Position numbers and translations under genes: made by a program. Below, one piece after another: positions 1 to 12,432 of a stretch of DNA of 41,990 nt. Origin of the DNA: a virus. The notes under the pieces were generated by a model that saw only the letters and a list, made by a program, of their open reading frames with translations, did not search any database and had not been told where the DNA came from. Where the stretch lies: IMG/VR virus record IMGVR_UViG_3300029787_000050, positions 940 through 42,929 of that record. The stretch is one strand, 5' to 3'. Numbering within the stretch: the first letter of the stretch is position 1; each line of letters starts with the position of its first letter.

Positions 1-939
1 TCTGCAGTATTCAATCAGATACATGAAGGACAATTATATTTTAATTCAACAACAAACACTTTTAAAGAAACAATAACAGATGTATCTAGTGGAACATGGT
101 CTAGTGGTGGTAATTTAAATGAAGGAAGAAACGCAGGATCAAGTGCTGGAACACAAACCGCAGCTTTATTTGCTGCTGGAGATCCAGTATCAGCAGGAAC
201 AACTGATAGCACAGAACTTTATAATGGAAGTTCATGGACAGAAGTAGCAGATTTAAATACAGCAAGAAGAGAAACTGCTGTTGGATTAGGTCTAACAAAT
301 ACAGCAGCTTTATGTGTTGCAGGTAATCCCCCTATAACTGGAATAGTAGAATCTTGGGACGGTAGTTCTTGGACAGAAATTGCAGATTTAAATACTTCTC
401 GTTCTCATGGAGGATCTTCAGGTTCTCAAACAAGTGCATTAGCTTATGGAGGAAATGATCCACCTTATAGAGCATACACTGAATCTTGGGATGGTAGTTC
501 TTGGACAGAAGTTTCAGATTTAAATACAGCTAGATATGGTGGTATGTTTTCTGCAGGTCAAAGTAATTCATCAGCCATAACTGCAGGAGGATATAGCACT
601 GGTTATCTCGCAATTACAGAAACTTGGAATGGTAGTTCTTGGACTGAAGTTGGAGATTTAAATGATGGAAGATATGGTTTAGGTAGCTCCATAAGTGGAT
701 CTACTACATCTGCTTTAGCTTTTGGAGGAGACTCACCTCCAGCGACAGCTAATACAGAATCTTGGAATGGATCAGCTTGGACTGAAATTAACAACTTATC
801 AACTGCTAGAAGTCAACTAGGTGGTGCAGGTTCTTCTGCCGTTAGTTCTTTAGCATTTGGTGGAGGACCCAATCCTGTTGCTACATCAACAGAAGAATTT
901 ACAGCAGGTTTAGGTAACAAAACAATTACAACGAGTTAA
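1..939 (+). CDS. Kelch-type beta-propeller tail protein (5' end missing)
   Basis: The frame is open from base 1 to TAA at 937-939, so at least 312 residues are present and the true start lies outside the window. The first ~30 visible residues (EGQLYFNSTTNTFK) look like a short adapter found in marine phage tail proteins. After it come about six blades of ~45 residues, each with a Gly-Gly strand, then a segment like ESWDGSSWTEVSDLNTAR. The last blade ends TEEF, as in the next gene, which is typical of propeller closure. The next gene starts 2 bases downstream and is a paralogue. The likely role is a receptor-binding or tail-appendage protein (inference from fold and position); galactose-oxidase-like enzymatic activity is not supported by any visible catalytic motif. 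Confidence 0.8.
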   Translation, partial: SAVFNQIHEGQLYFNSTTNTFKETITDVSSGTWSSGGNLNEGRNAGSSAGTQTAALFAAGDPVSAGTTDSTELYNGSSWTEVADLNTARRETAVGLGLTNTAALCVAGNPPITGIVESWDGSSWTEIADLNTSRSHGGSSGSQTSALAYGGNDPPYRAYTESWDGSSWTEVSDLNTARYGGMFSAGQSNSSAITAGGYSTGYLAITETWNGSSWTEVGDLNDGRYGLGSSISGSTTSALAFGGDSPPATANTESWNGSAWTEINNLSTARSQLGGAGSSAVSSLAFGGGPNPVATSTEEFTAGLGNKTITTS

Positions 940-941
940 TT

Positions 942-2768
942 ATGGCAACGTATAAAGAAGTAAAAGGCGTAACAGTACAAACACTAAGTGAAGATCCAGT
1001 TGTTGGAGGAGCTGCTGGAGGATCTTGGGCATCTGGTGGAACTATGAATAATTCAAGAGCGGGTTCTGGTGGAGGTCTTGGAATATATACTGCTGCAATT
1101 GTTGCAGCAGGAGGAAATCCAGCTGAAACTACTACAGAACAATATAATGGATCAAGTTGGACTGAAATTAATGATGTTAATACTGCTAGAAAATCTCCAA
1201 CGGGATCTGGAACTACTACTGCAGGTTTAGCATACGGGGGAGTTATTAACCCAAGTAGCGTAATAGCAAATAATGAAAGTTGGAATGGTTCAAGTTGGAC
1301 AGAAGTTAACGATTTAAATACTGCAAGAGGTCTTGGTGCAGCCAGCACTCAAGGAACCTCTACAGCTTCTTTAATGATATCAGGACAGACAACTCCTACT
1401 AACATGGTAGCAAACACAGAATCATGGGATGGAACTAATTGGACAGAAGTAAACGACGTAAATACTGCAAGAAGAAGCGGAGGAGGTGCAGGAACTCAAA
1501 CAGCGGCTCTATATTCTGGTGGTGGTCCTGGTTCATCAACTGCTACAGAAATATGGAATGGATCTTCTTGGACTGAAACTGCAGATCTTAATACTGGAAG
1601 AAACGAGGCAAGTGGTTCAGGAGAAAGTAGCTCAGATGCATTATATTTTGGTGGAGGACCTGATATAGCTAAAACAGAATCTTGGAATGGCACAAGTTGG
1701 ACAGAGGTATCTGATTTAAGCACTGGAAGAAATTTTTTAACTGGAATAGGAACAGGTGCTAATTCTATAGCAGCTGGTGCTGAAAGTCCAACACCAGCAA
1801 GAAATGTAACAGAGGAGTGGGCAACAGCACCTGTAACAGCAGCTATTTTAACAGAAGGTGATTTATTTTTATCTGGAGGCACAACCTTAAAAGGTTTTGG
1901 AAGAGCGGCTGGGATACCAAGCACTAGTTGGGCTAGTGGTGCTGACTTAAATACAGCAAGACATTATTTTAATGGTTCAGGTATTACATATAATACAGCT
2001 ATTGTTTATGGTGGTATGGCTGGATCATCTTACACTGGAGTGACAGAAAAATATAATGGTAGTGCGTGGACAGAAACAGGAGATTTAAATTCTGCTAGAT
2101 TTATGTTGGCAGGCGCAGGTACTCAAACCGCATCACTTGCTTTTGGTGGTGCTCTTGGACCATCAGAAACTGTGCAATCGGTTAATGAATCTTTTAATGG
2201 TTCTAGTTGGACAGAGGTAGGAGATTTAAATACTGCTAGAAAACAAGTAGCAGGCATAGGAAGATCAGGAACTACAGCTGCTTTATGTGTTGGAGGCAAT
2301 GCTCCTCCAGGAAGACTTGGAGTAAATGAATCATGGAATGGCACAGCTTGGACAGAATTAGGAGATTTAAATACAGCTAGAAATGCTTTAGCAGGAGCAG
2401 GAAATCCGTCATCAGCTTTGGTTTTTGGTGGAGAAGCACCACCTCACACAAATGTAACAGAAAAATGGGATGGATCTAGTTGGACTGAAGTAAATAATTT
2501 AAACACAGCAAGATATATATTAGCAGGAGTGGGTCCTGATAGTAACTCTGCGTTAGCTTATGGAGGACTTACAACTACAGATATTGCAAACACAGAAGTT
2601 TGGAATGGAACATCGTGGACAGAATTAAATGATTTATCAACTGCAAGAAGGCCAGCAGGGTCAGGAACAACAAGTTCAGCTTTGGCTTCTGGAGGAGGAC
2701 CGCCTTCTGCAGCTACAACCGAAGAATTTGAAGCTGAGGCTACATTATCCACAGTAACCGTATCATAG
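942..2768 (+). CDS. Double kelch-type beta-propeller tail protein
   Basis: This 608-residue protein holds two successive propeller modules. After an N-terminal leader (~residues 1-28), module 1 has a SWASGG strand and repeated EsWNGSSWTEvNDLNTAR blades ending at TEEWATAP. A linker (EGDLFLSGGTTLKGFG) resembles the adapter at the start of the preceding partial gene. Module 2 repeats the same pattern and ends TEEFEAEATLS. I count about six blades per module, with first and last strands able to close the ring. It is paralogous to the gene at 1-939, and both precede an oxygenase operon. A secreted or virion surface adhesin that binds host glycans or protein is the likely role; function is inferred, the repeat structure is directly visible. 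Confidence 0.85.
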   Translation: MATYKEVKGVTVQTLSEDPVVGGAAGGSWASGGTMNNSRAGSGGGLGIYTAAIVAAGGNPAETTTEQYNGSSWTEINDVNTARKSPTGSGTTTAGLAYGGVINPSSVIANNESWNGSSWTEVNDLNTARGLGAASTQGTSTASLMISGQTTPTNMVANTESWDGTNWTEVNDVNTARRSGGGAGTQTAALYSGGGPGSSTATEIWNGSSWTETADLNTGRNEASGSGESSSDALYFGGGPDIAKTESWNGTSWTEVSDLSTGRNFLTGIGTGANSIAAGAESPTPARNVTEEWATAPVTAAILTEGDLFLSGGTTLKGFGRAAGIPSTSWASGADLNTARHYFNGSGITYNTAIVYGGMAGSSYTGVTEKYNGSAWTETGDLNSARFMLAGAGTQTASLAFGGALGPSETVQSVNESFNGSSWTEVGDLNTARKQVAGIGRSGTTAALCVGGNAPPGRLGVNESWNGTAWTELGDLNTARNALAGAGNPSSALVFGGEAPPHTNVTEKWDGSSWTEVNNLNTARYILAGVGPDSNSALAYGGLTTTDIANTEVWNGTSWTELNDLSTARRPAGSGTTSSALASGGGPPSAATTEEFEAEATLSTVTVS

Positions 2769-2770
2769 AC

Positions 2771-2798
2771 TTGACCTTTATATAGAAAGGTATATAAA
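2771..2798 (+). promoter_or_regulatory. Probable promoter for the coiled-coil/oxygenase operon
   Basis: TTGACC at 2771-2776 and TATAAA at 2793-2798 are separated by 16 bases, in the only gap between the propeller genes and the next operon. The first gene start with a good ribosome site follows 27 bases downstream. Confidence 0.55.
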
Positions 2799-2825
2799 GA
2801 TATTAGAATGAATAAAGGAGACAGA

Positions 2826-3491
2826 ATGTCAAAAGAAAAACGTAATATAGCTACCAAGTTAGAAACAGAATCAAAGTATTTAACAAACATCCTAGATAAA
2901 GATGATGTTAAAAATTTTAAGAAATTAATACCCGAATTACAAGATACATGGATGAAGAAACAAATGTTTCGTACAGAAACAGAAATGAGATTCTCTGTGT
3001 TATCTGATAATAAATATCCAACGAAAGCTGCAAAGTATTGGCAATCTGTGAGAGAGCAGAATACACACTTTGAAAATTTAGTTCATCTATCATTTGATGC
3101 AAGAAAAAATGAAGTTGAAATAAAGAAATTACAAAGAGATATTAAAAAAGAAAAAGATTCATTAGAGAAAGAACTTAAACAAGTTGAGCTAGAAGAAAAA
3201 TTATATGCAAAAGCACAAATGGAATTAGTTGCTAAACATAGAATGAGAGAAGTAGCAACTTGGTCTAAACTTAAAAAAGAGTTTCACGATGGTTCTTTTG
3301 ATGATAGAGACGTGAATACGCACCAAGCTAAATCATATCTATTAAGATTCCAAAGACAGAAAGAAACAATAACTCCTGGTACAACACAACCAGAAGTATT
3401 TAACATATTAGGGCAATTAGAAGCTTTAGAAAAAGGTTTGAAAGAAAACACTTTATCTTTAGATGCCAAGAAAACTAAAAAATTAAAATGA
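2826..3491 (+). CDS. Charged coiled-coil protein of unknown function
   Basis: I chose ATG 2826 (221 residues) over the in-frame ATG 2808 because AGGAG at 2816-2820 lies 5 bases before 2826. The protein is highly charged and almost wholly helical. Residues ~90-150 form a Lys/Glu-rich coiled coil with heptad-like spacing; no enzymatic motif or membrane segment is visible. Its last four bases (ATGA) overlap the start of the first oxygenase, so translation is probably coupled. It could be a scaffold, chaperone or partner of the oxygenases or of tail assembly, but the sequence does not decide this. Confidence 0.75.
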   Translation: MSKEKRNIATKLETESKYLTNILDKDDVKNFKKLIPELQDTWMKKQMFRTETEMRFSVLSDNKYPTKAAKYWQSVREQNTHFENLVHLSFDARKNEVEIKKLQRDIKKEKDSLEKELKQVELEEKLYAKAQMELVAKHRMREVATWSKLKKEFHDGSFDDRDVNTHQAKSYLLRFQRQKETITPGTTQPEVFNILGQLEALEKGLKENTLSLDAKKTKKLK

Positions 3492-4150
3492 AGTTTGATT
3501 TTGTCTATTTAGGGCAAACAGTTTTAAAATATGAAGTCCCTTTAGAAGTTTTTGTAGGTCTTAATGAGATCTATGAAAAACAAAAGAAACAATTACCAAA
3601 AGCAAATAAACAATTAGTAGGTAAGATACAGGATGAAGTGTCTTTATATTATTCAGGTCCTAACAATGATAAGATGCACCAACATTCTTTTTTACCAGCC
3701 GACATCCTTAAATGGTTTATGTCTATATTTGATCACTACACAGATTGGAATAAGATAGGCCTAACACAAAAATCAATAAATTCTATTTGGGTTAATGAGA
3801 TGAAAGCGCATGAATATAATCCTGTGCACATACACCAAGGTAAACTCTATACAGGTTTATCTTCTGTGATGATTTTAAAATTACCAAAAGAAACAGGTGT
3901 TGAATATTCAGCGGAATCAAAACCTATGAATGGTAGATTACAGATTATTGGTGCAGCTAACGGACAATTTTCTAAAACAGATTATTCACCTAACATGAAG
4001 ATAGGAGATTTTTATGTTTTTCCATATGATATGAGACACTGCGTATATCCATTTAACGGAACCAAAGAAACTAGAAGAACATTAGTTTGTAATGTAGATA
4101 TTGATTATAATCCTGTGGCATCACGAACTGGATCGGGGCAACTGGAATGA
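3488..4150 (+). CDS. Putative 2OG-Fe(II) oxygenase (first of four)
   Basis: The 220-residue protein carries a double-stranded beta-helix pattern. A candidate metal site is in NPVHIHQGKLYTG (H114, H116), followed by a GDFYVFPYDMRHCVYPF segment with the distal His (H184) and RRTLV with R196/R197 for 2-oxoglutarate. The HxH form, rather than HxD, resembles the TIGR02466/PF13759-like branch also seen two genes downstream, though the two proteins are otherwise dissimilar. ATGA overlaps join it to the gene before and after. The substrate is unknown; oxygenases of this kind in marine phages have been proposed to modify proteins or nucleic acids. Assignment rests on motif reading without a profile search. 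Confidence 0.7.
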   Translation: MKFDFVYLGQTVLKYEVPLEVFVGLNEIYEKQKKQLPKANKQLVGKIQDEVSLYYSGPNNDKMHQHSFLPADILKWFMSIFDHYTDWNKIGLTQKSINSIWVNEMKAHEYNPVHIHQGKLYTGLSSVMILKLPKETGVEYSAESKPMNGRLQIIGAANGQFSKTDYSPNMKIGDFYVFPYDMRHCVYPFNGTKETRRTLVCNVDIDYNPVASRTGSGQLE

Positions 4151-4740
4151 CACAAGTACCAAGAATGCCAAGATGGCAATCTTACGTTGCACAAACAACT
4201 AATCCAGTTTTTACACCAGAGCAATGTAAAATGATTATTGATGCCGGTCATCAATGTGAACCTGAACAAGCTAAAGTAGGTGGAGGTGAAGAAGGTAAAT
4301 ACGATACTAAAAAAAGAGTAACAACTATATCTTGGATACCTTTTGATAAATTACCACAAATGTACAAAATTATTGAGAATCAATTATCTATTGTAAATTT
4401 AAATCATTTTATGTTTGATGGTGTAAAAATTACAGAACCAGCACAGTTTACGGTATATCCTAAAAAAGGTTTTTACGATTGGCATATGGATTTAAATGCT
4501 TTTGGTCAAGACGGTCAAAATCCAATACGTAAAATATCTATGACTTTATTATTATCTGATCCATCAGAGTTTACAGGTGGTGAGCTTACATTTTCAGAAA
4601 TGGGTGATAACAAACCACTGCCCATGAAACAAGGACAAGCAATATTCTTTGCATCATTTTTACGACACAAAGTTGCGCCGGTTAAAAAAGGTGTGAGAAA
4701 ATCTTTAGTGATGTGGTTTGGAGGACCTCCTTTTAAATGA
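4147..4740 (+). CDS. PKHD-type 2OG-Fe(II) hydroxylase (second of four)
   Basis: This 197-residue protein has the classical prolyl-4-hydroxylase-like arrangement. HxD is at H113/D115 (DWHMDLNAFG), a SMTLLLSDPSEFTGGEL core follows, and the distal His H174 and Arg R184 lie in FLRHKVAPVKKGVRKSL. The order and spacing fit small bacterial and phage PKHD-type hydroxylases (YbiX/PiuC-like). All three iron ligands and the 2-oxoglutarate Arg are present, so it is probably active. It overlaps both neighbours by ATGA. The target is unknown; a tail or host protein side chain would fit the context (inference). Confidence 0.88.
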   Translation: MTQVPRMPRWQSYVAQTTNPVFTPEQCKMIIDAGHQCEPEQAKVGGGEEGKYDTKKRVTTISWIPFDKLPQMYKIIENQLSIVNLNHFMFDGVKITEPAQFTVYPKKGFYDWHMDLNAFGQDGQNPIRKISMTLLLSDPSEFTGGELTFSEMGDNKPLPMKQGQAIFFASFLRHKVAPVKKGVRKSLVMWFGGPPFK

Positions 4741-5342
4741 AATTACAAAGAAAAATATTATTTCCAACTCCTGTATATTTTAAAGATATACCTAACTCAA
4801 AAGAATTAAATAAATATTTATTCAAAGAAATAAAAAAATGGCGTAAGGCAGATCCTGAAGGAGAGAAAAAAACTAATTCTGGTTTTGGTTGGCACAGCAA
4901 AACAGATATGGATAAGAAAAAAGAATATAAACCATTAATGGAAGAATTATTTAAGATGGCCTATGAGTGTAATAAAGATTATGGTGTAGAAGGTAAACTA
5001 GGACTTGGTAATATGTGGGCTAACATTAATCCAACATATAGTTATAATAAAACTCATACACATCCTAATTCATTATGGTCTGGAGTTTATTATGTTAAAG
5101 TACCCAAAAGTTCAGGTAAATTATTTTTAGAGGATCCTAGACCAGGACCAAACACACATATGCCTAGAAGAGTAGAGGGTATGCCAGAAGCATTATGGAG
5201 AGTTTGTGCCTATGAACCTGTAGAAGGTCGCATGATATTTTTCCCATCTTGGCTGCCTCATGGTGTTGATATAAATTTAAATACAGATAAAGGTGAAAAA
5301 AACTGGAGGATATCTGTGTCTTATAATTTTATACAAATATGA
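4737..5342 (+). CDS. 2OG-Fe(II) oxygenase, TIGR02466-like (third of four)
   Basis: The 201-residue protein contains THTHPNSLWSGVYYVKVP (H107/H109), LFLEDPRPGP, a GRMIFFPSWLPHGVD strand with distal His H175, and WRISVSYNF with R191. This set is the signature of the TIGR02466/PF13759 family, common in marine phages and often annotated as putative 2OG-Fe(II) oxygenase. Length matches the family. It is coupled to both neighbours by four-base overlaps. Activity and substrate have not been established for most of the family, so only the class is confidently called. Confidence 0.87.
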   Translation: MKLQRKILFPTPVYFKDIPNSKELNKYLFKEIKKWRKADPEGEKKTNSGFGWHSKTDMDKKKEYKPLMEELFKMAYECNKDYGVEGKLGLGNMWANINPTYSYNKTHTHPNSLWSGVYYVKVPKSSGKLFLEDPRPGPNTHMPRRVEGMPEALWRVCAYEPVEGRMIFFPSWLPHGVDINLNTDKGEKNWRISVSYNFIQI

Positions 5343-5983
5343 GTTTTAAGAAAAATAAATATCAAGTTATACGTGGTGCTATATCTAAAGAGATAGCCGA
5401 TATAGCTTATAGGTATTTACAAATATCTGCAGAAGCAGATCACTGGATGTTAAACAATGGTGTGACTCATGCAGGCAATAAACTTGTAGGTAATTTTAAC
5501 GACGCACAAGTTCCAGGTTCTTACGCTAAATATGGTGATAGACTTATGGAAACATTATTAGTTAAAACTATAGATGTTATGCAGAAGAAGACAGGACTTA
5601 AACTAGTGCCAACATATTCATACACAAGACTTTATAGAAAAGGTAATATTTTAAGAAGACACAAAGATAGACCTAGCTGTGAGATATCGACTACACTAAA
5701 CTTAGGTGGAGATAACTGGCCTATATTTATCGATCCTACGGGGTCTAATAACGTCATAGACGAGTATAAAAACATACATAAGCCTGGTGCACCCAAGGGT
5801 ATAAAAGTAGACTTAAAACCAGGAGATATGCTTATTTACTCTGGATGTGAATTAGAGCATTGGAGAGAGCCTTTTCAAGGTGAATTATGTGGTCAGGTAT
5901 TTTTACATTATAATCATGCAGATGGAAGGTTTGCAAAGTCCAATTTGTATGATAAAAGACCTATGCTAGGAATAGTCAAATAA
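5339..5983 (+). CDS. 2OG-Fe(II) oxygenase (fourth of four)
   Basis: The 214-residue protein has HxD at H108/D110 (RRHKDRPSCEIS), a TTLNLGGDNWPIFID core, GDMLIYSGCELEHWREPF with the distal His H174, and a C-terminal QVFLHYNH strand. It matches a marine phage 2OG-Fe(II) oxygenase type distinct from the other three. The distal 2-oxoglutarate Arg is not obvious; R176 is a candidate. It ends the oxygenase run. A 39-base gap with a possible promoter separates it from the tail protein downstream. Confidence 0.85.
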   Translation: MSFKKNKYQVIRGAISKEIADIAYRYLQISAEADHWMLNNGVTHAGNKLVGNFNDAQVPGSYAKYGDRLMETLLVKTIDVMQKKTGLKLVPTYSYTRLYRKGNILRRHKDRPSCEISTTLNLGGDNWPIFIDPTGSNNVIDEYKNIHKPGAPKGIKVDLKPGDMLIYSGCELEHWREPFQGELCGQVFLHYNHADGRFAKSNLYDKRPMLGIVK

Positions 5984-5985
5984 CG

Positions 5986-6012
5986 TTGAACATCAACGCA
6001 ATCTAATATAAT
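5986..6012 (+). promoter_or_regulatory. Possible promoter before the tail/virion gene block
   Basis: A consensus -10 (TATAAT, 6007-6012) follows TTGAAC (5986-5991) at a short 15-base spacing. The -35 overlaps a small palindrome, GTTGAacaTCAAC. The placement before a new gene block supports it; the short spacer weakens it. Confidence 0.35.
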
Positions 6013-6022
6013 CTGGAGATCT

Positions 6023-8215
6023 ATGCTACAAAAGATAGGGTTTCAACCTGGTATAAATAAACAAATCACAGAAACCACTGCAGAGGGCCAGTGGGTAGAT
6101 TGTGATAATGTTCGTTTCAGATATGGTACACCTGAAAAAATAGGTGGTTGGAGACAATTAGGAGCGGATAATTTATCTGGGGCAGCTAGAAAATTACATC
6201 AATTTAATAATAGCCAAGGAATTAAATATTCTATTATAGGAACAAATAGAGTTTTGTATGCTTATTCAGGAGGTGTATTTTATGACATACACCCTATTAA
6301 ATCTACAACAACTCTCACAAGCGCATTTACCACGACTAACGGATCAACTGAAGTTACAATAACTTTTAGTGGAGATCACGGCATATCAAAAGGTGATATT
6401 ATATTATTAGATAATTTTTCTGCTATAACTAATTCTAATTTTTCAGCTACAGAATTTGATGATATTAGATACATGGTTACGACTGTGCCTACAAGTTCAA
6501 CTATAACAATCACAATGGCATCAAATGAAACAGGATCTGGTGCAACGACATCAGGTGGTATTAGAGTTCAACATTATTATTCTGTAGGTCCAGATGTACA
6601 AGCTCAAGGTTTTGGTTGGTCTCTTGGAACTTGGGGCGGTGAAGAGGTAGGAGCTTTTACTACAACTTTATCAGCAGCTATTAATTCATCAGCAACGACT
6701 GGTATTACATTAGCAGACCCATCGCAGTTTCCAAGTTCAGGCACAAACTTTTTATTAATAGGCACGGAAGAATTATCTTATACAGGTATTAACTCATCTA
6801 ACCAATTAACGGGCGTAACAAGAGGTGTAAGAAATACCACGGCTGTATCACATGGTGCTGGAGATACAGTAACTAGCACAGCTAATTATGTGGCTTGGGG
6901 TGAGGCAGCATCAGGAGACTTAGTTTTAGAACCTGGTATGTGGTCTATTGATAATTTTGGTGATAAAGCTATTTGTTTAATTCATGATGGTGAAGTTTTT
7001 GAATGGGATTCTTCAGCAACAAATGCAACAGCAACACGAGCTACAATTATAACTGGTGCACCAACAGCATCTAGACACATGTTGGTATCTACACCAGATA
7101 GACACTTAGTGTTTTTTGGAACAGAAAGAACTATTGGTACTAAAACAACTCAAGATGATATGTTTATTAGATTCTCTGCTGTTGAAGATATTAATACTTA
7201 CACACCTACAGCAACAAATGATGCTGGTACACAAAGACTGGCCGACGGATCACAGATCATGGGAGCGATTAGAGGTAGAGATGCAATTTACGTTTATACA
7301 GATACAGCATTATTTTTAATGCGTTTTGTTGGTCAACCTTTTACATTTGCATTTACACAAGCTGGTACAAACTGTGGACTAGCAGGACAGAATGCAGTCG
7401 TAGAAGTTGATGGTGCAGCATACTGGCTATCAGAAAATGGTTTCTTTAAATATGCTGGTAGTTTAGAATCATTACCTTGTTTAGTAGAAGATCATGTATA
7501 CGATGATATAAATTTAGCATCAGGAAACCAAATGATTAATGCAGGATTAAATAATTTGTTTGGTGAAATTATGTGGTTCTACCCTTCATCAACATCATCT
7601 GTTGTTAATAGAATGGTTTGTTATAATTATTTTGATTCTTCACCTAGAAGACCTGTTTGGACTGTTGGAACTTTAGCTAGAACTGCTTGGTCGGACTCAG
7701 CTGTTTTTGGAACACCACACGCGTTAGAGTATGATCCTGATGCTGTAGAGGGATCTAGTTCATCAACTTATATACAAGGTAATACAGATGGTGTGTCAAC
7801 ATATTATCAACACGAAACAGGAACAGATCAAGTAAAAGGTGGAGCAGTAACAGCAATCACAGCAAATATATTATCTGGAGATTTTGATATTACACAACAA
7901 GTTATTAGAGGCACTATGACATCAAATGCAACTATTCGTGGAGATGGTGAATTTATAATGAAGATAAGAAGATTTGTTCCTGACTTTATATCTCAAACTG
8001 GTAATACACAAGTGACTTTAAATTTAAGAAATTATTCTAACGATACAGCAGCAGGCTCTTCTTTGGGACCATTTACGGTTACATCATCTACACAAAAAGT
8101 AGATACACGTGCAAGAGCAAGAGCTATCGCTTTAAAAGTAGAAAACACAGGATCAAGTCAAGACTGGAAATTAGGAACATTTAGATTAGATATACAACCA
8201 GATGGTAGAAGATAA
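6023..8215 (+). CDS. Tail/DNA-stabilisation-like structural protein
   Basis: This 730-residue protein begins with KIGFQPGINKQITETTAEG followed by WVDCDNVRFRYG and PEKIGGWRQL. I associate this N-terminal pattern with large podovirus tail/hub proteins related in role to P22 packaged-DNA stabilisation proteins. It is almost all beta and Thr/Ser/Gly-rich, with no enzyme motif. Residues ~97-185 and ~205-265 look like inserted beta domains (for example TGITLADPSQF and EELSYTG), flanked by propeller-like segments such as HMLVSTPDRHLVFFGTER. It heads the structural block and overlaps the next gene by one base (TAATG). Tail location is inferred; the exact homologue is uncertain. Confidence 0.7.
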   Translation: MLQKIGFQPGINKQITETTAEGQWVDCDNVRFRYGTPEKIGGWRQLGADNLSGAARKLHQFNNSQGIKYSIIGTNRVLYAYSGGVFYDIHPIKSTTTLTSAFTTTNGSTEVTITFSGDHGISKGDIILLDNFSAITNSNFSATEFDDIRYMVTTVPTSSTITITMASNETGSGATTSGGIRVQHYYSVGPDVQAQGFGWSLGTWGGEEVGAFTTTLSAAINSSATTGITLADPSQFPSSGTNFLLIGTEELSYTGINSSNQLTGVTRGVRNTTAVSHGAGDTVTSTANYVAWGEAASGDLVLEPGMWSIDNFGDKAICLIHDGEVFEWDSSATNATATRATIITGAPTASRHMLVSTPDRHLVFFGTERTIGTKTTQDDMFIRFSAVEDINTYTPTATNDAGTQRLADGSQIMGAIRGRDAIYVYTDTALFLMRFVGQPFTFAFTQAGTNCGLAGQNAVVEVDGAAYWLSENGFFKYAGSLESLPCLVEDHVYDDINLASGNQMINAGLNNLFGEIMWFYPSSTSSVVNRMVCYNYFDSSPRRPVWTVGTLARTAWSDSAVFGTPHALEYDPDAVEGSSSSTYIQGNTDGVSTYYQHETGTDQVKGGAVTAITANILSGDFDITQQVIRGTMTSNATIRGDGEFIMKIRRFVPDFISQTGNTQVTLNLRNYSNDTAAGSSLGPFTVTSSTQKVDTRARARAIALKVENTGSSQDWKLGTFRLDIQPDGRR

Positions 8216-8379
8216 TGGCAAAGATAGTACAAGTATTAACAAGACCTAGTAAAGAATATAAACAAGAAGTAGCGGACGCACAAGTTAGAGATTTAGATGG
8301 TGTCATACAAAAATTAAATACAACATATCAAGAAGAATTAAAAGAGGAGGTAGAAGCATTTAACTTCTTTTTAAATTAA
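8215..8379 (+). CDS. Small helical protein, 54 residues
   Basis: ATG at 8215 shares its A with the stop of the tail gene, and the TAA at 8377-8379 shares its last base with the next ATG. The product (begins MAKIVQVLTRPSKEY, ends VEAFNFFLN) is charged and probably helical. The perfect fit between two overlapping neighbours supports a real gene. Function unknown; a small virion or chaperone component is possible from position only. Confidence 0.7.
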   Translation: MAKIVQVLTRPSKEYKQEVADAQVRDLDGVIQKLNTTYQEELKEEVEAFNFFLN

Positions 8380-8720
8380 TGGCTAATAGTTTTAAAAATA
8401 AAAAAGTAGATTTAACTACAACAGATCTTACAACTTTGTATACAGTGCCAACTGCAACAACTACTGTTGTTAAATCATTATTAGTGTCTGAAGATGCTGG
8501 ATCAGGATCTACAATAACAATAACATTAGTAAATTCTAATGGTGATATATTTAATTTATTTAAAGATAAAGCTATATCATCTAAAGCAACAACAGAACTT
8601 TTAACAAATCCACTTGTTATGGAAGAAAGTGAGATACTTAAAGTACAGGCTGCTGACGCGAACGAGCTGCATGTCATAGCTTCAATATTAGAAATACAGC
8701 CGAGAGAGGTGGTAACATAG
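8379..8720 (+). CDS. Small beta-rich virion-associated protein
   Basis: The 113-residue product is Thr/Val-rich with alternating hydrophobic strands (TLYTVPTATTTVVKSLLVS, ITITLVNSNGDIFNLF), as in small beta-sandwich decoration or head-tail proteins. No catalytic motif, signal or membrane segment is visible. It overlaps both neighbours by one base within the structural block. A minor structural role is inferred from fold-like pattern and location. Confidence 0.75.
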   Translation: MANSFKNKKVDLTTTDLTTLYTVPTATTTVVKSLLVSEDAGSGSTITITLVNSNGDIFNLFKDKAISSKATTELLTNPLVMEESEILKVQAADANELHVIASILEIQPREVVT

Positions 8721-8890
8721 TGCAAATACTTAAACCAAAAGAAATTATAGAAGAGATTAGTAACCTTAAAACAGGTGAAAAATATAAAAATGATGAAGAA
8801 TGGAAGGCTAAAGGCATACCTGAATCTGACATAAGAAGAGATGTGAGAGTAATAATGCCTAGTCTTGATTTGTTTGGAAAAACAAAGTAA
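8720..8890 (+). CDS. Small protein, 56 residues, GTG start
   Basis: GTG at 8720-8722 uses the last base of the previous TAG. The frame runs to TAA at 8888-8890 and gives a charged peptide (QILKPKEIIEEISNLKTGEK near the N-terminus, SLDLFGKTK at the end). No ATG start is available at a useful place, so the overlap is the main support. Function unknown. Confidence 0.6.
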   Translation: MQILKPKEIIEEISNLKTGEKYKNDEEWKAKGIPESDIRRDVRVIMPSLDLFGKTK

Positions 8891-8915
8891 TGTGGAGTTT
8901 CGGACCTAGGAGAAT

Positions 8916-10442
8916 ATGAGTATAACAAGATCACAAATAGCTAGACAACTTATGATGGAAGGTGGAATGCCCAGAAAACGTTTCCAATTTGGTGGAATGG
9001 ATAGTGGCGGATATGATCCAGGAGTAGAATCTGGTTATGATGCTGGCATGAGTGGTGGATTTGGAGATTCTGGTGCCGTTGATACAGGAGATTTAGGTTC
9101 TGAAGCAGCAAATGTTGCAGCTAACTTATCGGCAACTTCTTTTGGAGGAGGTGGATCAGATGATTTAAACCCTGCTGAAAAATTTAGAATAGCTAGTTTA
9201 AAAAATCAAATAGACCAAATGTATGGTCAAGCATCTAAACTTCCTAGTTTCTTAAGTGCATTTAATATAGGTAGACCAAAATTTGCACCTGAATTTTATA
9301 CTGATATAGATCCTGATGAAATAGGTTTATCTGGAAAAGATGCAACTAGAGCTCAGAGAATAAGAGAAGCTATAAACAAAGCTCAAACAACAGGGATTTT
9401 AACACAAGCAGAATTTGAAAAAGCTTTTGGAAATATGAATATAAATACTCCTTCTGGACCAGATGATGGACCATCAACACCTATTATACCCATTGCACCA
9501 ACAATGATAGCCAAAGACGATAGTGATGACGATGAAATAGAAAATGAATTTGTGCAAAGATTTACATTACCTGAAAGATTTAGATTAGCTGAAGGTGGAG
9601 ATATGAGACAAGAATATGGTTTAGGAAGTCTTGTTAAAAAAATTACTGGAACTGTTAAAAAAGTTGCAAAGTCACCAATAGGTAAAGCAGCTTTAGCAAT
9701 TGGATTAGGTGCTTATGGTTTAGGAGCAGGACCTTTTGCATCAGGATCTTTAGCAAAAATACCAGGAGCAGGATTTTTAAAAAGTCCAGGGTTTTTAGAG
9801 TTTATGTTTAAAGGTGGTGACCCTGCATTTAAAAATTTAAAAAATAAAGGTGTATTTTCAGCTATAGCTGGTGCTTCAGCATTAGCAGGAGCTTTGACTC
9901 CTAAAGAGGAAGAACAAGAATCTTTAAGTCAAAGAATAGCAGATAGAACAGGTATTGATGTGACTGCGATTAGAAAAGAAGTTCAAGATGCATACGCATC
10001 TGGTAACACTGCTAGCTTAAGAACTAAATATCCTTTTTTAATACCTGAAACTGCCGCTGCAGATGGAGGTAGAATAGGTTTTGATAATGGAGGAACTTAT
10101 AAAGATTTTGAAGAATTTATGAAAAAAAGAGGTAAATTTCAAAAAGAACAAAATTTAAAACAATTACAAGAAGAGTTTAAACGATATATGAATAGAAATA
10201 AACCTGTTGAAGCTGCAGAAGGTGGTATGATGGACATGGGTGGTATGGAAATGGACCTTCGAGGAGGTGGTTTTGTGCCAATGGGAGCTGAAGAAAAAGC
10301 TGACGATGTGCCAGCAAGATTATCAAAAAATGAATTTGTATTTACTGCAGATGCTGTTAGAGCTGCAGGTGGAGGAAGCGTTGATAAAGGCGCAGATCTA
10401 ATGTATAAAACTATGAAACAATTAGAAAATAAGGTAGCATAA
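8916..10442 (+). CDS. Large virion-associated protein, Gly-rich
   Basis: AGGAG (8908-8912) precedes ATG 8916. The 508-residue protein has a Gly/Asp-rich N-terminus including GMPRKRFQFGGMDSGG, a short hydrophobic Gly/Ala region (~255-285), and a conserved-looking C-terminus with DDVPARLSKNEFVFTADAVR and AAGGGSVDKGADLMY. I recall this C-terminal block from many marine phage structural-region proteins, function unassigned. Its one-base overlap with the next gene and its place before three more large proteins suggest an internal virion or ejection protein (inference). Confidence 0.7.
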   Translation: MSITRSQIARQLMMEGGMPRKRFQFGGMDSGGYDPGVESGYDAGMSGGFGDSGAVDTGDLGSEAANVAANLSATSFGGGGSDDLNPAEKFRIASLKNQIDQMYGQASKLPSFLSAFNIGRPKFAPEFYTDIDPDEIGLSGKDATRAQRIREAINKAQTTGILTQAEFEKAFGNMNINTPSGPDDGPSTPIIPIAPTMIAKDDSDDDEIENEFVQRFTLPERFRLAEGGDMRQEYGLGSLVKKITGTVKKVAKSPIGKAALAIGLGAYGLGAGPFASGSLAKIPGAGFLKSPGFLEFMFKGGDPAFKNLKNKGVFSAIAGASALAGALTPKEEEQESLSQRIADRTGIDVTAIRKEVQDAYASGNTASLRTKYPFLIPETAAADGGRIGFDNGGTYKDFEEFMKKRGKFQKEQNLKQLQEEFKRYMNRNKPVEAAEGGMMDMGGMEMDLRGGGFVPMGAEEKADDVPARLSKNEFVFTADAVRAAGGGSVDKGADLMYKTMKQLENKVA

Positions 10443-11353
10443 TGGCAATAACAGAATCACGAGTATTACCACCACAATTTATAGAAGATCTAGCAACAGA
10501 TTATGGACAGCAATTAACAGCGTTAACGGCTCAACCTATTGATACATCAAAATTTGCACCTACGGTTGCGCAACAAGATCCATTACAGACGAGAGCAGCT
10601 GGTTTAGCTGAATCTGGTATTGCTTCTTTTCAACCTTTTATCGATGCAGCACAAGCAAGAGCAGGTGAAGCAGCAACAGGTATAGCTGGCGCTGAAGCAA
10701 TGTTAGGATCTGGTGCAGGTACAGGCGCAGGAACAATTCAAGATTTTATGTCTCCATATCAATCACAAGTTATTGATACAACACTTGCGGAGTTTGATAG
10801 AAACAGAGCTATACAAGAACAACGAATCAAGGACCAACAAGCAGCGCTAGGAGTTTTAGGTGCAGGTAGAGCAGGCGTACAGCTTTCCGAGTTCGGAACG
10901 GGATCTGATAGAGAGCGTGCACTATTACAAGCAGGATTATTACAACAAGGTTTTGGTGATGCAGTAGCCAGAAGACAACAAGATATAGCAAACAGACAAG
11001 GTTTAGCACAAAGCAGATTAGGTTTAGGACAATTTCAAACAGGACTAGCTGGACAAGTTCCTGGTTTACAAAGAGCAGATATTAGCACGTTAGGATCAGT
11101 GGGCGCTATCCAACAAGCACAAGCTCAGGCTCAAGCAGATGCAGCTAGAGAAACAAATAGACTTGCAGCTTTTGAACCATATGAAAGATTAAATACTTTT
11201 GGATCAGGTATCGCACAATTAATTAGTGGCTACCCAGGTAGAACACAATTTACATCTGTGCCTAACCCAACTCCATTACAAACAGCTCTTGGTGTAGGTT
11301 CTACATTAGCTGGAATATATGGAAACATAGTAGGACCAGTAAGAGTAAGATAA
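10442..11353 (+). CDS. Probable internal virion/ejection protein, Ala-Gln-rich
   Basis: The 303-residue product is rich in Ala, Gln and Gly with long amphipathic helices (ALLQAGLLQQGFGDAVARRQ) and a Gly-rich C-terminal hydrophobic patch (ALGVGSTLAGIYGNIVGP). This composition is typical of podovirus ejection proteins, which leave the virion and insert into the host envelope. It overlaps both neighbours (TAATG). There are no enzyme motifs. A role like P22 gp7/gp20 is inferred from composition and context. Confidence 0.65.
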   Translation: MAITESRVLPPQFIEDLATDYGQQLTALTAQPIDTSKFAPTVAQQDPLQTRAAGLAESGIASFQPFIDAAQARAGEAATGIAGAEAMLGSGAGTGAGTIQDFMSPYQSQVIDTTLAEFDRNRAIQEQRIKDQQAALGVLGAGRAGVQLSEFGTGSDRERALLQAGLLQQGFGDAVARRQQDIANRQGLAQSRLGLGQFQTGLAGQVPGLQRADISTLGSVGAIQQAQAQAQADAARETNRLAAFEPYERLNTFGSGIAQLISGYPGRTQFTSVPNPTPLQTALGVGSTLAGIYGNIVGPVRVR

Positions 11354-12432
11354 TGAATAGAATATTAAAAAGACCAATGTTTAAAATGGGTGGCGATGTT
11401 GAAGACATTGGCATCATGGATGGCATGCGTACAAGATTTGCCAACGGTGCATTTGGTAGAAAACAAAGAAGAGCTCAAAGAACTACAAATCCTTTTTTTG
11501 ATCCTAGAACAACTTTACCTAGTATGGAAAGTGGTAGAAGAAGAGTTAGAACAATACCTACTCCTTTGTATGAAGATTTTCCTCAAATAGATCAACCTAG
11601 ATTTGCTAGTTTAAATACTGGAACAATGTCTGATGCATCAACTGGAACAGGTATTACATCTACTTTAAAATCTGATGCTAATGTTGAAATGGATTTACCT
11701 GAATCAGATTTAAAATCAACACCATCTATTATCAAAGGTAAAGATGAAGGTGAAGGTGGAGGTGGATCTGATGATAAAGGTATGAGAACTATGAGAGGTT
11801 TTGGAACTCCATCATTAAATGATTTTTTAATTAATTTTGGTTTAAATTTAGTATCAGCAACACCTAGAGGTGGTTTACTTGCTACAGCTGCAGAATCTGC
11901 AAAAGAACCATTTAGAGCAATGCAGGCTAGAAAATTACAAGAAGAGGCTCTTGAAGAAGAAAGAGAGTTTCAAAAAGAATTAAAAATGATGGATAGAAGT
12001 GAAATAGAAAAACAAGCTAGACTTATGTCAAATACAAAAGGCAATAAATATTTTAATGATTATGAAGGTGCATTAAATGAAATACTTTCAGCAAGGCTTA
12101 AAGATGCTAGTCCTTTTAGAAAAGAAAGAAATCCAGTCGCTATTGCAAAAGATAACTTAGTGAATGATAATGTTCCAACAACAATCGCAGAATTTGCTGC
12201 GCCATATCAAGCAAACATAACAAAAATTATACAAAATAATAAAGAAATACCATTTGATGTTCTTCAACCCTATGCTTACAAAGGTAGAACAGATTATGAA
12301 GATGGTGCTGTATATATAGAACCAGTAAATGGTAAATTAAAAAGATACGATAAAAAAGCAAAAAAATTCATAGACATAGGATTTATTGATACATCAGGGA
12401 AAGTTACGACAGAACAAACTCCTGGTGAATAG
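11353..12432 (+). CDS. Virion-associated protein with RPMFKMGG N-terminus
   Basis: The 359-residue protein starts MNRILKRPMFKMGG, a motif shared in form with other large proteins in this window (see findings). The middle is low-complexity Ser/Thr/Gly (~110-150), followed by a charged helical region (EEALEEEREFQKELKMMDR) and a mixed C-terminal domain. No known domain is recognised. Its place in the four-gene run between ejection-like proteins suggests a virion component. Confidence 0.65.
   Translation: MNRILKRPMFKMGGDVEDIGIMDGMRTRFANGAFGRKQRRAQRTTNPFFDPRTTLPSMESGRRRVRTIPTPLYEDFPQIDQPRFASLNTGTMSDASTGTGITSTLKSDANVEMDLPESDLKSTPSIIKGKDEGEGGGGSDDKGMRTMRGFGTPSLNDFLINFGLNLVSATPRGGLLATAAESAKEPFRAMQARKLQEEALEEEREFQKELKMMDRSEIEKQARLMSNTKGNKYFNDYEGALNEILSARLKDASPFRKERNPVAIAKDNLVNDNVPTTIAEFAAPYQANITKIIQNNKEIPFDVLQPYAYKGRTDYEDGAVYIEPVNGKLKRYDKKAKKFIDIGFIDTSGKVTTEQTPGE

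Follow-up and report, generated by a model that had tools for sequence, protein, structure and literature searches.

A conserved run of four predicted 2-oxoglutarate oxygenase genes beside the virion genes of an HTVC023P-type pelagiphage

Background

Why would a phage carry four different 2-oxoglutarate (2OG)-Fe(II) oxygenase genes in a single run? The question is raised by a 41,990-nucleotide stretch of the virus record IMGVR_UViG_3300029787_000050 (positions 940 to 42,929; the whole stretch is called the window below), in which an earlier note, made from the letters alone, pointed out four consecutive and different genes of this kind at positions 3488-5983, each overlapping the next by ATGA and together comprising at least three sequence types. 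That description is upheld by sequence profiles for the first three products (G1 to G3) and by an AlphaFold2 fold for the fourth (G4). All four thus appear, by profile or by predicted fold, to encode Fe(II)/2OG-type double-stranded beta-helix oxygenases, including G4, whose family goes by the name of ferrochelatase.

The phage itself has a terminase 71% identical to that of HTVC027P and is therefore assigned, on sequence, to the HTVC023P-type pelagiphages, related to the viruses of SAR11, the most abundant bacteria of the ocean. Its terminase and virion genes are both of this type, the virion genes being 75-76% identical to related ones on a contig of the Pelagibacteraceae assembly AG-404-L13, and the record, at 57,615 bases, is close in size to HTVC027P (57,595).

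Four predicted oxygenases in one coupled run

The four genes are arranged as follows.

3488-4150, forward strand: G1, PF13759 (2OG-FeII_Oxy_5; Pfam 8.5e-10), with H114/H116/H184 and a conserved R196
4147-4740, forward strand: G2, PF13640, PiuC/PKHD-like (Pfam 2e-15), with H113/D115/H174 and R184
4737-5342, forward strand: G3, TIGR02466/PF13759 (Pfam 9e-22), with H107/H109/H175 and R191
5339-5983, forward strand: G4, phrog_2954, labelled 'ferrochelatase', with a predicted oxygenase fold and H108/D110/H174

The 4-bp ATGA overlap is exact at each junction, and a coiled-coil gene just upstream overlaps G1 in the same way. The earlier note had read the iron ligands of G2, G3 and G4 correctly and overlooked the triad of G1. 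It had also placed the run under one promoter, for which a scan of positions 1-12000 gave no support, finding 30 promoter-like sites where chance alone would give 44.

Profile scores place the first three products in their families: G1 reaches 39.4 bits against PF13759 (cutoff 27), G2 58 bits against PF13640 (cutoff 27), and G3 77.9 bits against PF13759 (cutoff 27) and 133 bits against TIGR02466 (cutoff 62.5). Searched by sequence against the PDB, G3 finds 2rg4 (9e-14) and G2 finds PiuC (8e-9). Nothing meaningful emerged from the PDB sequence search with G1, and its AlphaFold2 model, a beta-helix with a predicted local distance difference test score (pLDDT) of 89.5, has 3bvc and 2rg4 as its top PDB folds. 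These two structures share family and an HxH motif with G1 and G3, but they are uncharacterised marine bacterial proteins of a family without an assigned function. Indeed, G1 and G3 carry HxH...H rather than the canonical HxD/E...H, invariantly so (123/123 and 136/136 homologues), and since neither has the canonical carboxylate ligand, their naming as oxygenases rests on Pfam family and fold. G2 resembles PiuC, a PKHD-type hydroxylase of PF13640, in its triad, in its sequence and in the spacing of its arginine (R184, present in 98% of homologues about 10 residues after the distal histidine); at 64 bits against a cutoff of 143 for the NCBIfam PiuC/PKHD equivalog PRK05467, it is not the same enzyme.

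Each of the twelve predicted ligand positions holds the same residue in every homologue collected (123 for G1, 130 for G2, 136 for G3 and 146 for G4), and each gene is under strong purifying selection, with median ratios of nonsynonymous to synonymous substitution rates (dN/dS) of 0.061, 0.097, 0.071 and 0.070, respectively. Activity as Fe(II)/2OG-dependent enzymes is predicted for all four from sequence and models. Within the cassette G1 and G3 are mutually nearest (BLASTP 2e-6, 25% identity; hhalign 96%). G2 and G4 stand apart from each other and from the G1/G3 family. Because detectable similarity is confined to that one pair, at 25%, a recent tandem duplication was rejected.

These comparisons also bear on the idea of nucleic acids as substrates, with the enzymes oxidising or demethylating bases in DNA or RNA. 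Some 2OG oxygenases, AlkB and TET/JBP among them, do act on nucleic acids, which lends the idea some force. Against it, none of G1-G4 matches an AlkB or TET/JBP profile (G2 gives only a sub-threshold Oxygenase-NA score, E=0.24), the folds match prolyl hydroxylases and TIGR02466-type proteins, and the genes sit among virion rather than replication genes. Such a use is highly improbable.

The gene labelled ferrochelatase

G4 matches phrog_2954 (6.5e-55), which bears the label 'ferrochelatase'. Sequence searches of the PDB, Pfam and NCBIfam gave no match for G4, so that predicted fold alone placed it, and neither G4 (P0004) nor 49 homologues matched a Pfam ferrochelatase family. The AlphaFold2 model, for which 49 sequences from the window and the loci were used, reaches a mean pLDDT of 92.2 and a predicted template-modelling score of 0.89. 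When it was compared with the PDB by Foldseek, the top matches were the prolyl-4-hydroxylase of Pseudomonas putida, alone and with EF-Tu (4j25, 4iw3), and PHD2, with E-values of about 1e-9 to 1e-7, identities of 11-19% and template-modelling scores of about 0.5-0.6. The 50 PDB matches listed, of 1,813, include no ferrochelatase. The model has the double-stranded beta-helix and the HxD...H triad of the prolyl-hydroxylase-like fold, and among viral protein models the 'Ferrochelatase' E3SI68 of S-SM1, a phage with a long oxygenase run, shares the G4 fold (root-mean-square deviation 1.6 over 152 columns). The beta-helix model and the two missing ferrochelatase matches led to rejection of the name, and G4 is predicted to be a prolyl-hydroxylase-like oxygenase of the same superfamily as G1-G3.

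The likeness to the P. putida enzyme and PHD2 lies in predicted fold and triad. Those enzymes have a 2OG-binding arginine, whereas G4 lacks the usual arginine or lysine some 9-12 residues after the distal histidine and carries instead C184 (47/49 sequences) and Q186 (49/49). For this reason it is described here as having a prolyl-hydroxylase-like oxygenase fold and not as a prolyl 4-hydroxylase. Two invariant arginines, R97 and R176, could replace the missing one.

A different account of the locus has been attached to the label, namely that the enzymes serve auxiliary metabolism, their consumption of 2OG shifting the nitrogen or energy state of the host, with G4 joining them in heme or iron metabolism as a ferrochelatase. 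Modulation of 2OG was proposed for cyanophages (PMC3037559), in the paper to whose 'Hyp. with ferrochetalase domain' the label can be traced at least; ferrochelatase was later treated as a partner of the 2OG oxygenases of HTVC023P-type phages (PMC9599517), and PMC11561400 again tallied phrog_2954 under ferrochelatase. The confident beta-helix model of G4, its invariant HxD...H (146/146) and the lack of a ferrochelatase match, whether in Pfam or among those 50 structures, all speak against this account, and turnover of 2OG needs no four diverged enzymes. The account as a whole is very improbable, and a role in heme metabolism unlikely.

Annotation of the family elsewhere is inconsistent rather than uniformly wrong, since homologues of G4 in the S-CREM1, S-SCSM1 and 023Pt_psg01 records are labelled as 2OG oxygenases or given both names. 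A limited phrase search of the literature found no paper calling the phage ferrochelatase misannotated. Two further profiles touch on the same question. phrog_3531 (362 positions), also labelled ferrochelatase, matches G4 over positions 54-174 and G2 over 190-360, which suggests a natural G4-G2 fusion. phrog_274, labelled 'DNA endonuclease V', is matched by G3 and by gp72 of HTVC027P, and genes matching it lie within oxygenase runs (L437:1598-2086 and L439:4242-4724, for example); models named 'DNA endonuclease V' match the G4 fold. In marine phages phrog_274 may be another mislabelled 2OG family.

Conservation of the array

How widely is the arrangement kept? Over the 155 distinct viral contigs of the first two scans (the per-locus total of 224 counts some contigs repeatedly), G1-G2-G3-G4 is complete on 117, and one further contig carries it together with an additional G3-like copy. 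None has a different order; the remainder show part of the array, a shortfall that likely stems from contig ends and flank limits. The order is unchanged down to about 45-65% identity, and ATGA overlaps are preserved at 161-200 of about 250 junctions. Loci anchored by the coiled-coil protein alone had G1-G2-G3-G4 downstream in all 33 cases with enough flank, though these are close relatives and hence not independent. The earlier note had allowed that an unrelated fold among the four products, or an order unique to this contig, would speak against it; with four oxygenase folds and an order so often repeated, neither objection holds.

The array is not entirely static. At least a dozen loci hold a fifth 2OG gene within the cassette. 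The commonest insert is a small ParB-like protein (PF02195) between G3 and G4, found at L027:7909-8334 and in about 45 other loci, and some loci include what reads as a MazG-like gene. One locus, L035, is nearly identical to the window in its coiled-coil and virion proteins (both 100%), G2 (98%) and G3 (99%); its G1 is only 93% identical, and its G4 is shortened and 75% identical, a pattern that suggests recombination within the cassette.

Runs of such genes are known from other phages, and four in a row is less exceptional than the earlier note supposed. HTVC008M has five oxygenase genes in succession and the cyanophage S-CREM1 nine, one of them JmjC (PMC9964418); both runs have short overlaps and a phrog_2954-type member, yet these phages are myoviruses whose runs differ from the window cassette in composition and neighbours. 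S-SCSM1 is reported to have 24 such genes in total (PMC9964418). Closer at hand are the isolates HTVC023P, HTVC027P and HTVC033P (PMC9599517), which share with the window their type, the genomic site, the PHROG families and a 'ferrochelatase' homologue adjoining a 2OG gene. That study described eight non-orthologous 2OG genes, nearby rather than adjacent and varying in order, whereas the four in the window are adjacent, coupled and fixed in order, and the 'ferrochelatase' is itself a predicted oxygenase fold. Oxygenase runs as such were thus known already; what is new is the strict order and coupling over many contigs, the fixed site and the identity of G4.

An island that varies in content but not in position

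The cassette is bordered by the following genes.

942-2768, forward strand: tandem-repeat propeller-like protein, phrog_27227 (1.9e-168)
2808-3491, forward strand: coiled-coil-like protein, no Pfam match above cutoff, ATGA-coupled to G1
6023-8215, forward strand: virion structural protein, phrog_3287 (8e-104), which marks the conserved downstream edge of the island

The propeller-like protein, a putative adhesin, is the last of several upstream paralogues, and nearly every locus with sufficient flank has two or three of them ahead of the coiled-coil gene. Neither it nor the coiled-coil protein had a match in the annotated phage collection. Far from this region, a gene at 24959-25609 matches phrog_3704, labelled 'ferredoxin' (6e-74), and adjoins the DNA polymerase.

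The site was surveyed in relatives by an anchor independent of the oxygenases, the virion protein gp75 of HTVC027P, which is homologous to the product of 6023-8215, in loci with at least 2.5 kb upstream. All 47 have one to five oxygenase genes just upstream of the virion gene (one in 6 loci, two in 14, three in 16, four in 10 and five in 1), almost always on the other strand, and the combination differs between loci. In HTVC027P itself three genes beside a tail-collar gene, gp72, gp73 and gp74, encode 2OG proteins, only gp73 being annotated so. Given the fixed site and the varying, mostly inverted islands of relatives, the window cassette represents a stable form, in forward orientation, of an oxygenase island that otherwise varies, and the most stable of its versions.

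Other genes are found in some islands. Three genes are inserted between the coiled-coil gene and G1 in L028:4501-6011 and similar loci. One resembles sulfotransferases (PF13469 in the related L132), and the other two, encoding a P-loop kinase and a nucleotidyltransferase-like protein, are the two halves of phrog_10255; together the three may form a small cassette for sulfation. At L273:7490-8107 and elsewhere, a sulfotransferase of another family (PF03567) lies between G4 and the virion gene. On a contig binned into a metagenome-assembled genome (L296:217-7144), a tryptophan halogenase (PF04820, 1.5e-111) stands among six 2OG-type genes.

Could the substrate then be a small molecule, glycan or lipid, which the enzymes would tailor within a pathway for decoration or secondary metabolites? 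The sulfotransferases, the phrog_10255 pair and the halogenase inside the L296 array would all suit such a role, and a cyanophage cluster of a halogenase with 2OGFeDO genes has been put forward as a means of polysaccharide decoration or of making a metabolite (PMC7824862). But the extra genes are missing from the window and from most loci, and no scaffold-making enzymes adjoin the cassette; tailoring of this sort is judged unlikely.

What the enzymes may modify

The favoured possibility is that the enzymes act on polypeptides, which may belong to the virion or to the host. The reading we put forward, tentatively and while stopping short of calling it probable, is that the conserved, translationally coupled cassette makes four non-orthologous oxygenases together to hydroxylate a polypeptide, in the first place an adhesin or tail protein of the virion. 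Each enzyme would use Fe(II), O2 and 2OG to hydroxylate an amino-acid side chain, and the four, produced together, would modify one protein or a set of neighbouring proteins at several sites late in infection. The phage's own adhesin and tail proteins would be the likeliest targets, with host proteins second. Polypeptide hydroxylation is favoured by the site beside tail and adhesin genes and by the protein substrates known for relatives of the G4 fold, the P. putida enzyme, crystallised with EF-Tu, and PHD2. A virion protein as the substrate is a best guess from position. The multi-step system imagined in the earlier note survives in part: order, coupling and intact active sites are consistent with four active enzymes being produced together, while the succession of steps was inference.

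Host proteins such as EF-Tu or ribosomal proteins might instead be modified during infection, biasing translation or blocking defence. The best fold match of G4, the P. putida prolyl hydroxylase crystallised with EF-Tu, is in keeping with this, as is the differing composition of the island among close relatives, which would be expected of host-specific targets. Ribosomal proteins are also known substrates of some bacterial 2OG oxygenases. A host target leaves the fixed position in the virion module unexplained, however, and we think it somewhat unlikely.

That said, several observations tell against hydroxylation of virion proteins. The island of HTVC027P-like relatives lies on the strand opposite to the virion genes and so is not co-transcribed with them; similar runs in cyanophages lie away from virion genes; and the sulfotransferase, tryptophan halogenase or nucleotide-transferase genes of some islands would suit small-molecule or glycan tailoring as well. 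To these must be added HxH in place of HxD in G1 and G3, and the arginine that G4 lacks.

A more speculative extension, which we consider improbable, is that the island is a diversifying modification locus, in which one set of hydroxylases is exchanged for another at a fixed site beside adhesins, at times along with sulfotransferases or a halogenase. The open reading frame preceding the island, which from its sequence usually looks tail-collar-like or short fibre-like, belongs to one cluster in nearly all gp75-anchored loci while the island varies, so no co-swapping of island and adhesin was seen in HTVC027P-like loci.

Implications

Correcting the 'ferrochelatase' label would strip the heme and iron story from PMC9599517 and PMC11561400 and leave in its place runs of one enzyme superfamily, and published partnerships of 'ferrochelatase plus 2OG oxygenase' need to be read again. 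HTVC023P-type phages are reported to be the most abundant pelagiphages known, at about 7.6% of viromic reads (PMC12753301), and for a genome of 57 kb to maintain four conserved oxygenases is a considerable outlay that calls for an explanation. If the island were indeed a diversifying locus, it would write variable side-chain modifications on the virion, changing host binding while the adhesin sequence stays the same. With the site by the tail genes fixed, what was a vague 'auxiliary metabolic gene' becomes a question of virion protein modification that can be put to the test in HTVC027P, a cultivable isolate.

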